The position numbers and the translations under genes were made by a program. Shown here piece by piece: positions 9,308 to 19,234 of a stretch of 64,000 nucleotides of DNA. The notes under the pieces were generated by a model. It did not search any database. It was not told the origin of the DNA and saw only the letters and a list, made by a program, of their open reading frames with translations. Every line of letters starts with the position of its first letter. The stretch's first letter is position 1. Origin of the DNA: Apus apus (taxonomy: Eukaryota > Chordata > Aves > Apodiformes > Apodidae); NCBI RefSeq assembly GCF_020740795.1, contig NC_067287.1:10493501-10557500 (forward strand), written 5' to 3'.

Positions 9308-11821
9308 GCCTTTCTTTCTTTCTTTCTTTCTTTCTTTCTTTCTTTCTTTCTTTCTTTCTTTCTTTCTTTCTTTCTTTCTTTCTTTCTTTCTTTCTTTCTT
9401 TCTTTCTTTCTTTCTTTCTTTCTTTCTTTCTTTCTTTCTTTCTTTCTTTCTTTCTTTCTTTCTTTCTTTCTTTCTTTCTTTCTTTCTCTCTCTCTCTCTC
9501 TCTCTCTCTCTTTCTTTCTTTCTTTCTTTCTTTCTTTCTTTCTCGTAAGCTCTTTCTCTCTTTTGCTTTTTCGTTCTTTCATTCGCTTTCTTTCTCTTTT
9601 TCTCTCTCTCTCTTTTGCTCTTTCTTTTGCTTTATTTCTCTCTTTCACTCTTTTGCTCTTTCACTCTTTCTTTTGCTCTTTATTTCACTCTTACTTTCGC
9701 TATTTCACTCTTTCATTCTTTCTTTCTCTTCCTCTCTTTCTCTTTCTCTTTCTCTTGCTCTTTTTCTTTTGCTTTCTTTCACACTTTTGCTCTTTCGCTC
9801 TTTCTTTAGCTCTTTCTTTCTCTTTCTTTCTTTCTTTCTTTCTTTCTTTCTTTCTTTCTTTCTTTCTTTCTTTCTTTCTTTCTTTCTTTCTTTCTTTCTT
9901 TCTTTCTTTCTTTCTTTCTTTCTTTCCTTTCTCTCTTTCTTTCCTTTCTCTCTTTCTCTCTTTCTTTCTCTCTTTCTCTCTTTCTCTCTTTCTCTCTCTC
10001 TCTCTCTCTCTCTTTCTCTCTTTCTCTCTCTCTCTCTCTCTTTCTCTCTCTTTCTCTCTCTTTCTCTCTTTCTCTCTCTCATTTGCTCTTTCTTTCCCTC
10101 TTTAGCTCTTTCTTTAGCTCTTTCTTTCTCTTTCTTTTGCTTTCTTTCTCTCACTCTTTCGCTCTTTCTTTCGCTATTTTGGTCTTTCATTCTTTTGTTC
10201 TTTCTCTTTATCTCTCTCTTTTTCTCTTTCTCTTACTCTCGCTCGTTTGCTCTTTCTCTCTTTCTTTTGCTATTTCGCTCTTTCATTCGTTTTCTTTCAC
10301 TTTTTCTCTTTCTCACTCTCTTTTTCTCTCTTTCTCTCTCTCTTTCTTTTTCTCTCTTTCTCTCTTTCTTTTTCTCTTTTTCTCTCTTTCTCTCTCTTTT
10401 TCATTTTCTCTCTCTTTTTCTCTCTTTCTCTCTCTCTTTCTCTCTCTTTCTCTCCCTTTTTTCACTCTTTCTTTCTCTTTCTCTCTCTCTTTCTTTCTAT
10501 TTTTTTGCTTTCTTTTGCTTTCTCTCTTTCACTCTCACTCTTTTGCTCTTTCTTTAGCTCTTTCTTTCACTATTTTGCTCTTTCACTCTTTTTCTCTCTG
10601 TTTATTTCTCTCTTTCGCTCTTTCGCTATTTTGCTCTTTCTTTTCTTTCTCTCTCTCTCTCACTTTCTTTTGCTTTATTTCTCTCTTTTGCTCTTATTCT
10701 TTCTTTCTTTCTTTCTTTCTTTCTTTCTTTCTTTCTTTCTTTCTTTCTTTCTTTCTTTCTTTCTTTCTTTCTTTCTCTTTCTTTCTTTCTTTCTTTCTGT
10801 CTCTCTTTCTCTCTCTCTTACTCTTTCTATTTCTTACTTTTGCTTTCTTTCTCTCTTTCACTCTCGCTCTTTTGCTCTTTCTTTAGCTCTTTCTTTTGCT
10901 ATTTTGCTCTTTTCTTTTTTTCTCTTTCTCTCTTTTGCTCTTTCTTTCTCTTTCTTTTGCTTTATTTCTCTCTTTCACTCTTTTGCTCTTTTTCTTTAGC
11001 TCTTTCTTTTGCTATTTCTCTCACTTTCTCCTTCTTTCTTTCTTTCTTTCTTTCTTTCTTGCTTGCTTGCTTGCTTTCTTGCATTCTTTCTTGCTTTCTT
11101 TCTTTCTCTTCCTTTTGCTTTCTTTCTTTCACTCTCTCTCCTTTGCTCTTTCTTTCTCTTTCTTTTGCTTTATTTCTCTCTTTCACTCTTTTGCTCTTTT
11201 TCTCTTTCTTTTGCTTTTTCTTTTGCTATTTCTCTCTCTCTTTCTCTTTCTTTCTTTCTTTCGCTCTTTCTTTCTCTTCCTTTTGCTTTCTTTCTTTCAC
11301 TCTCTTTTGCTCTCTAGCTTTCTTTGCTATTTCGCTCTTTCCTTTGCTCTTTAGCTCTTTCTTTCTCTTTCTTCTTTAGCTTTCTTTCTCTCTTTCAGTC
11401 ACTCTTTCTTTCCCTCTTTAGCTCTTTATTTCCCTATTTCGCTCTTTCATTTGCTTTCTTTCTCTTTCTCTCTCTCTCTTTCTTTCTTTCTTTCTTTCTT
11501 TCTTTTGTTCTTTTTTTCGCTCTTTTCCTATTTCACTCTTTCATTCATTCTTTTGCTCGCTCTTTCACTTGCTCTCTTTCTTTCTCTCTTTCTCTCTTTC
11601 TCTCTTTCTCTCTTTCTCTCTTTCTCTCTTTCTCTCTCTCTCTTTCTTTTTCTTTTTCTCTCTTTTTCTCTCTCTCTCTCTTTCTCTCTCTCCCTTTTTT
11701 TCACTCTTTCTTTCTTTCTTTCTCTTTCTCTCTCTCTCTTTCTATTTTTTTTCTTTCTTTTGCTTTCTTTCTCTCTTTCACTCTCGCTCTTTTGCTCTTT
11801 CTTTAGCTCTTTCACTATTTT

Positions 11822-13015
11822 GCAAAGAAAGCTAGAGAGCAAAAGAGAGTGAAAGAAAGAAAGCAAAAGGAAGAGAAAGAAAGAGCGAAAGAAAGAAAGA
11901 AAGAAAGAAAGAAAGAAAGAAAGAAAGAAAGAAAGCAAGCAAAAGAGCAAAAGTGTGAAAGAAAGAAAGCAAAAGAAAGAAAGAGCGAATGAGCGAAAGA
12001 GAAAAAGAGAAAAAGAGAGAGAGAAAGAGAAAGAATGAGTGAAAGAGTGAAATAGCAAAAGAAAGAGCGAAAGAAAGAGAGAGAAAGAAAGAAAGAGAGA
12101 AAGAAAGAGCAAAAGAAAGAGAGAAAGAGAGAAAGAAAGAAAGAAAGAGAGAAAGAAAGAAAGAAAGAAAGAGCGAAAGAAAGAAAGAGCAAAATAGCAA
12201 AGAAAGCTAAAGAAAGAGCAAAAGAACGAAAATGAATGAGAGAAAGAAAGCAAAAGGAAGAGAAAGGAAAGAAAAAGAAAGAAAGAAGCAAAAAAGAGGG
12301 AGAGAAAGGAGAGAAAGAGAGAAAGAGCAAAATAGTGAACGAGAAATAAACAGAGAGAAAAAGAGTGAGAGAAAGAGCAAAATAGTGAAAGAAAGAGCTA
12401 AAGAAAGAGCAAAAGAGCGAGAGTGAAAGAGAGAAAGAAAGCAAAAGAAATAAAAAAAATAGAAAGAAAGAGAGAAATAGAAAGAGAAAGAAAGAAAGTG
12501 AAAAAAGGGAGAGAGAGAAAGAGAGAGAGAGAAAGAGAGAGAGAAAGAGAGAGAAAAAGAGAGAAAAAGAAAAAGAGAGAGAGAGAAAGAGAGAAAAAGA
12601 GAGAGAAAAAGAAAGAGAGAGAAAGAGAGAGAAAGAAAAAGAAAGAGAGAGAAAGAGAGAGAAAGAAAAAGAGAAAAAGAGAGAGAGAAAGAAAAAGAGA
12701 AAAAGAGAGAGAGAAAGAAAAAGAAAGAGAAAAAGAGAGAGAGAGAAAGAAAAAGAGAAAAAGAGAGAGAGAGAAAGAAAAAGAAAGAGAGTGAGAAAGA
12801 GAAAAAGTGAAAGAAAACGAATGAAAGAGCAAAATAGCAAAAGAAAGAAAGAGCAAACGAGCGAAAGAGAGTAAGAGAAAGAGAAAAAGAGAGAAAGAGA
12901 AAGAACAAAAGAATGAAAGACCAAAATAGCGAAAGAAAGAGCAAAAGAGTGAGAGAAAGAAAGCAAAAGAAAGAGAAAGAGCTAAAGAAAGAGCTAAAGA
13001 GGGAAAGAAAGAGCA
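11822..13015 (-). repeat. Inverted block within the satellite
   Basis: Here the purine strand switches to the + strand. Read on the - strand from 13015 to 11822, the word order (TGCTCTTTCTTTCCCTC, TTTAGCTC twice, GCTATTTTGGTC, TCATTCTTTTGTTC, TCGTTTGCTC and finally GCTCTCTAGC then TTTCTTTGC) follows + strand positions of about 10,084 to 11,327. It is therefore an inverted duplicate of that block, slightly shorter (1,194 versus about 1,244 bases). The two switch points are abrupt. Confidence 0.9.
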
Positions 13016-13027
13016 TTTGCTCTTTCT
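13006..13027. repeat. Palindrome at the purine-to-pyrimidine switch
   Basis: AGAAAGAGCA at 13006-13015 and TGCTCTTTCT at 13018-13027 are perfect reverse complements separated by TT. This is exactly where the satellite changes strand. Confidence 0.9.
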
Positions 13028-17960: not shown

Positions 17961-18074
17961 CTTTCTTTCTTTCTTTCTTTCTTTCTTTCTTTCTTTCTTT
18001 CTTTCTTTCTTTCTTTCTTTCTTTCTTTCTTTCTTTCTTTCTTTCTCTTTCTTTCTTTCTTTCTTTCTCTCTTT

Positions 18075-18770
18075 CTCTCTTTCTCTTTCTTTTGCTCTTT
18101 TGCTATTTCACTCTTTTCTTTCTCTCTCCTTTTCCTCTTTCCTTCTTTCTTTCTTTCTTTTGCTTTCTTTCTCTCACTCTTTCACTCTTTTTCTCTCTTT
18201 AGCTCTTTCTTTCTTTCTTTCTTTCTTTCTTTCTTTCTTTCTTTCTTTCTTTCTTTCACTCATTAGCTTTCTTTTGCTATTTCGCTGTTTCATTCACTTT
18301 CTTTCTCTTTCTCTCTCTCTCTTTCTCTCTTTCTCTCCCTATTTTTTCACTCTTTCTTTCTCTTTCTTTCTTTCTTTTTCTTTCTTTCTTTCTTTCTTTC
18401 TTTCTCTCTTTCTCTCTTTCTCTCTTTCTCTCTTTCTCTCTTTCTCTCTTTCTCTTTCTTTTGCTCTTTTGCTATTTCACTCTTTTCTTTCTCTCTCCTT
18501 TTCCTCTTTCCTTCTTTCTTTCTTTCTTTTGCTTTCTTTCTCTCACTCTTTCACTCTTTTTCTCTCTTTAGCTTTCTTTCTTTCTTTCTTTCTTTCTTTC
18601 TTTCTTTCTTTCTTTCTTTCTTTCTTTCTTTCTTTCTTTCACTCATTAGCTTTCTTTTGCTATTTCGCTGTTTCATTCACTTTCTTTCTCTTTCTCTCTC
18701 TCTCTCTTTCTCTCTTTCTCTCCCTATTTTTTCACTCTTTCTTTCTCTTTCTTTCTTTCTTTCTTTCTTT
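18075..18770. repeat. Tandem pair of about 370-383-bp units within the satellite
   Basis: GCTCTTTTGCTATTTCAC at 18094 recurs at 18463, and CACTCATTAGC at 18257 recurs at 18640. The blocks between them (CTCTCCTTTTCCTC, TCTCTCTTTAGC, GCTATTTCGCTGTTTC, CTCCCTATTTTTTCAC) match. The offset grows from 369 to 383 bases because the internal (TTTC)n run is longer in the second copy. Confidence 0.9.
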
Positions 18771-19234
18771 CTTTCTTTCCTTTATTTCTCTTCCTTTTGC
18801 TTTCTTTCTCTCTTTCACTTTTGCTCTTTTGCTCTTTCTTTAGCTTTCTTTGCTATTTTGCTCTTTCGCTCTTTAGCTCTTTCTCTTTCTTCTTTTGCTT
18901 TCTTTCTCTCTTTCACTCGCTCTTTCCCTCTTTAGCTCTTTCTTTCCCTGTTTCGCTCTTTCATTTGCTTTCTCTCTTTCTCTCTCTTTCTTTCTTTCTT
19001 TCTTCTTTCTTTCTTTCTTTCTTTCTTTCTTTCTTTCTTTCTTTCTTTCTTTCTTTCTTTCTTTCTTTCTCTCTTTCTTTCTCTCTTTCTTTCTTTCTTT
19101 CTCTTTCTCTCTTTCTCTCTTTCTCTCTTTCTTTTTTCTCTTTTTCTTTCTTTCGCTCTCTCTCTCTCTTCCTTCCTCCCTTCCGCCTCCTTCCCTTCCC
19201 TTCTTTCTTTTTCTCTTTCTTTCGCTCTTTCTTC

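Follow-up and report, generated by a model that had tools for sequence, protein, structure and literature searches.

The closest published phenomenon that we found to the locus described here is avian 'sequence stuttering', in which strictly local, imperfect tandem expansions build up in blocks of tens to hundreds of bases (PMC12954441). As reported there, exon-derived spans run from 112 to 23,555 bp and are mostly flagged as simple repeat by Tandem Repeats Finder (TRF), and a screen of introns placed 190 of 236 introns on dot chromosomes, which are described as GC-rich, and 36 on macrochromosomes. In human cells, GAA-TTC repeats stall replication forks and expand (PMC10484681), and non-B microsatellites trigger microhomology-mediated template switching, in which (ATTCT)47 showed a reversal of polarity (PMC11161834). 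Here we analysed a 64,000-nucleotide stretch of the Apus apus genome (the window; C7:10493501-10557500, in an assembly of 1.1 Gb and 110 contigs) that contains a CTTT repeat array of 9,926 bp, and positions below are those of the window unless a contig or locus is named.

Like the stuttering spans, the array carries local, imperfect, nested block duplications, but it is intergenic, AT-rich and polypyrimidine, lies on a contig that is 38.9 Mb or more in length and includes an inverted block, the word 'inverted' being absent from the main text of PMC12954441. Stuttering would further be expected to show high length variation between individuals. With the GAA-TTC repeat of FXN it shares the form of a long polypurine/polypyrimidine repeat of the H-DNA-forming kind; FXN, however, has an intronic triplet, whereas the array is degenerate, compound and intergenic, with an inverted block (PMC10484681). 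We regard the array as probably an unusually large member of the known long polypurine/polypyrimidine compound arrays. Its best explanation, which we hold to be probable, is a CTTT seed expanded in place by slippage, local duplication and template switching.

The array occupies 9309-19234, and the position and length given for it in an earlier, sequence-only reading of this DNA hold. The repeat is compound and degenerate and one of its blocks is flipped, which departs from the uniform CTTT satellite that the reading implied. TRF called three repeats, CTTT at 9310-11779, GAAA at 11851-13012 and TTTC at 13061-19154, with matches of 64-67%; self-match at lag 8 (0.697), the highest among the lags tried, exceeded that at lag 4 (0.666); and the 15 pure CTTT tracts that reach 12 units or more (12-44 units each) sum to 1,276 of the 9,926 bp. 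The near-perfect 4-bp units of a simple (CTTT)n microsatellite are thus missing, and the kilobase-scale strand bias of a long polypurine/polypyrimidine tandem array is present in every block (93%, 93% and 92%). The almost purine-free strand that had been claimed was found on either side of the flip: the left block (9309-11823, + strand), with pure CTTT tracts of 44, 26 and 19 units, is 93% pyrimidine on the + strand and the right block (13014-19234, + strand) 92%, with a purine share of 7-8% in both. It was not found in the inverted block between them (11824-13013, 1,190 bp, − strand), where the + strand is 93% purine and 7% pyrimidine.

Blocks were compared by a weighted local alignment in which the rare purines counted most, with the reversed target as control. 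The inverted block aligned end to end and colinearly with the reverse complement of 10086-11325 in the left block (1,138 positions, 89.4% identical; 50.5% identity in 103 purine columns), giving a score of 419 against 131 for the reversed control, as a template switch copying a nearby direct sequence would leave it. The best right-block stretch scored 318 (41.1% of 90 purine columns). The left inversion junction (11819-11826) is a palindrome with 4-bp arms, TTTGCAAA, and the right one (13006-13027) a palindrome whose 10-bp arms enclose a 2-base loop. Among 1,000 random positions of 35000-63900, palindrome arms of at least 4 bp occurred at 326 and none exceeded 7; among 1,000 random array positions, arms reached 4 bp at seven and 10 bp at one, the last being what a draw from the right junction itself would give. 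Only limited weight can be put on this comparison, because palindromes hardly arise in such DNA except at a strand flip. An inverted segment beside direct copies, with short shared sequence at the junctions, is the pattern of microhomology-mediated break-induced replication and of fork stalling and template switching (PMC11161834). The array likewise has an inverted segment beside direct copies and short shared junction sequence, but its inversion lies wholly inside the repeat, for which reason junction homology carries little weight, and its second switch point is ambiguous.

Direct duplications were found at several scales. The largest is a tandem pair of about 2 kb on the + strand, with the first copy at 14478-16496 and the second at 16500-18431; the copies are 96.2% identical over 1,866 aligned positions and 84.6% identical in 156 purine columns, and scored 1484 against 101 for the reversed control. 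Two shorter tandem duplications on the same strand have a shift of 121 bp (13540-13796; 97.8% identical over 136 positions) and of 369-383 bp (18079-18850; 97.6% identical over 376 positions). The duplications are nested and differ in divergence, from 97.8% identity in the 121-bp pair and 96.2% in the 2-kb pair to 89.4% in the inverted copy. The right-block start also aligned with 10246-11609 (score 311, 47.2% of 127 purine columns; reversed control 113). In 4 of 25 400-bp segments (starts 9309, 9709, 13414 and 19014), the best internal match was less than 20% above the reversed control.

Two motifs chosen from the array were sought across the genome. All 13 matches to an array 25-mer at up to one mismatch lay in the array, as did 15 of the 16 exact matches to an array 20-mer, the remaining one lying in no array. 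Near-exact motif copies are therefore almost confined to the array, which makes growth in place probable. Looser searches returned 64 matches for the 25-mer at up to three mismatches, 42 of them in the array, and 34 for the 20-mer at up to one mismatch, 20 of them in the array; the reversed control patterns matched 3 times (25-mer search) and 0 times (20-mer search). Exact matches on the two strands numbered 17,760 and 18,152 for (CTTT)12 and 17,035 and 17,425 for (CTTT)13, and the difference of these counts puts the genome-wide number of pure CTTT tracts with 12 or more units at 1,452, 15 of them inside the array. Eleven comparison loci, a non-random set, were taken from the 25-mer matches (L014-L019), from the 20-mer matches (L020 and L021) and from the first three tracts listed in the (CTTT)12 search (L022-L024). 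Purine/pyrimidine tracts were present at nine of the eleven, the longest being 771 bp, and L020 and L021 were without an array. Pure CTTT reached 39-77 units at six of these loci, so the tracts of 12-44 units within the array are no longer than those at the inspected loci. The expectation that bird microsatellites are usually short agrees with the tracts at the nine other loci but sits less well with 1,452 pure tracts of 12 units or more.

The array would, on the explanation that we favour, be an old compound repeat grown in place from a CTTT seed. Slippage would account for the pure tracts, whose length is ordinary, variant units (TTTCGCTC and its relatives) would have spread within the array, and tandem copies of 0.1-2 kb would have come from unequal exchange or re-replication. 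On one or more occasions, replication or repair would have changed to the other strand, run backwards over about 1.2 kb (10086-11325) and then returned, leaving the inverted block. We infer both this strand-reversing template switch and the growth by slippage with re-replication or unequal exchange. The driver could be the mirror-symmetric polypurine/polypyrimidine DNA itself, which might fold into triplex, stall forks and cause them to restart out of register; by analogy with repeats studied elsewhere, such triplexes and stalled forks are a likely motor of the growth. The triplex, fork-stalling and silencing effects put forward in the earlier reading are likewise analogies with GAA repeats.

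Several observations weigh against this explanation. The array and its inverted block are known from the sequence of one assembly alone. Compared piece by piece, the source of the inverted block is less clear: the left block scores well above the right in one of three segments (294 and 243) and narrowly above it in two (195 and 193, 129 and 124), though the matching right-block pieces are non-colinear. The start of the right block resembles both 10246 onward and 15616 onward, and the return to the + strand after 13013 appears to fit the second place better: the first 400 bp scored 269 against 15616-16016 (92% of aligned positions) and 234 against 10246-10695 (98%, gapped). A best source can thus be named for the first strand switch but not for the second, after which the sequence matches two places. 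A 4-bp palindrome like that of the left junction is frequent in ordinary DNA (326 of 1,000 positions), and the junction microhomology as read from the sequence is about 2 bp, which means little because the DNA is of low complexity. Last, looser motif matches do fall outside the array, 22 of 64 for the 25-mer (up to three mismatches) and 14 of 34 for the 20-mer (up to one).

Arrays of this kind are difficult to assemble, and the main rival account is an assembly fault, in which false duplication, the merging of two alleles or a read that was chimeric or folded back on itself inflated a shorter real array. End-to-end joining of two alleles could explain the 2-kb tandem copies, which are 96% identical. 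A fold-back should give a close copy and one junction, whereas the inverted block has two junctions, with mismatches to its best source in 10.6% of the aligned positions and in half of all purine columns, which disfavours that origin. Nor could allele joining readily mimic the whole pattern of nested copies of several divergences, and the window is without any N. We therefore consider an assembly artefact unlikely, and retain expansion in place as the preferred account.

It is far less probable still that the array belongs to a dispersed satellite family, having come from elsewhere in the genome or spread from here to further loci. CTTT tracts are common, looser motif matches occur elsewhere as given above, and the variant unit TTTCGCTC, which bears a CpG, also forms two small arrays, one at C6:47.01 Mb (L014:4839-5582), adjoining a pure CTTT tract of 73 units, and one at C1:48.40 Mb (L015:4186-4772), adjoining a pure tract of 48 units. 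On the other side, 13 of 13 and 15 of 16 near-exact copies lie in the array, and tracts at the nine other inspected loci do not exceed 771 bp. The small TTTCGCTC arrays may indicate the type of seed.

The array is flanked by the 3′ ends of ITGB5 (+ strand) and UMPS (− strand), which converge. Both this placement and the array's large size, as first proposed, are supported. An integrin beta tail (PF08725) is encoded on the + strand in the open reading frame (ORF) at 4477-4833, and we take this gene to be ITGB5 from the tail motif and from the neighbouring UMPS. The last coding exon ORF assigned to it (5204-5395, + strand, stop at 5393-5395) has no Pfam match of its own. On the − strand, UMPS is marked by PF00215 and PF00156 in the ORF at 27117-27851, and its last coding exon ORF (24774-25160, stop at 24774-24776) matches PF00215. 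A kinase exon at 35429-36034, also on the − strand, stands where KALRN would be expected from the gene order. Neither ITGB5 nor UMPS was named among the matches listed in a literature search on both genes.

Between these genes, the array starts 3.9 kb past the ITGB5 stop and ends 5.5 kb from the UMPS stop. The first AATAAA past each stop, a predicted signal, is at 5882 on the ITGB5 side and at 24407 on the UMPS side, and transcripts using them would stop about 3.4 kb (left) and 5.2 kb (right) short of the array; poly(A)-like hexamers nearer to it, the closest being at 9159 (left) and 20023 (right), are candidate sites only. No Rfam matches were found between the gene ends (5396-24800). That the array is kept as an insulator or transcription terminator between convergent genes is scarcely credible: its position between converging 3′ ends and the impeded transcription of GAA-TTC repeats in another system (PMC10484681) speak for it, and against it are the first AATAAA signals well short of the array, though closer candidate hexamers exist, and the lack of Rfam matches between the genes. 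The array appears to be without indicated function and tolerated in the gap between two 3′ ends.

Two further readings were tried and rejected. A transposon origin was considered from the flanks. For the right flank, 18 of at least 21 non-self genome matches lay at 19576-20113 (65-86% identity) and three in an AT-rich stretch; for the left flank, the other matches, at least 15, all lay at 8451-8870 (66-78% identity), both match lists being lower bounds. The stretches 8451-8870 and 19576-20113 are, from these matches, probably old interspersed repeats, and neither is in contact with the array. The array's right end is adjoined by an AT-rich minisatellite called by TRF (19256-19357). Another minisatellite, of five 35-bp GC-rich copies with 99% matches (29738-29912), falls within the kilobase of the window that is richest in GC, past the UMPS exons identified here.

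The other rejected reading was that CpG decay reveals germline methylation. CG occupied 23 of 27 TTTxxCTY sites at C6:47.01 Mb and 17 of 32 at C1:48.40 Mb, compared with 40 of 649 in the array, where TG numbered 113, CA 63 and AG 45, a contrast that resembled CpG deamination. Within the recent 2-kb pair, however, transitions were seen at 4 of 24 CpG dinucleotides, with two mutable sites each, against 43 of 523 non-CpG C sites, which is no per-site excess; the inverted pair gave 4 of 12 CpG dinucleotides against 66 of 334 non-CpG C sites. On the pyrimidine strand, TG was commoner than CA at these array sites, which could at most hint at a strand bias of deamination because the array copies are not independent.

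Among the titles and abstract openings listed in our literature search, none concerned multi-kilobase CTTT arrays in birds, from which their absence from print does not follow. Poly(A)-rich motifs are described as ubiquitous in birds in PMC9951716, the accessible part of which does not cover array length, and nothing on CTTT arrays was found in the accessible part of PMC13320880. We put forward tentatively, and with more doubt than confidence, that the instability behind stuttering on GC-rich dot chromosomes is also at work on a large chromosome, at CTTT seeds that are AT-rich and prone to triplex formation. If so, the locus would be a record of successive fork restarts, including strand-reversing template switches, and one of about 1,450 CTTT tracts would have run away while the others remained short. 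Such arrays in long-read assemblies need checking. If reads confirm this one, the locus would show the path from a microsatellite seed to a 10-kb compound array, recorded in its ordinary-length pure tracts, its variously diverged block duplications and its strand reversal. It would then be a natural setting in which to test models of fork restart at polypurine repeats, with the many short CTTT tracts of the same genome as controls.

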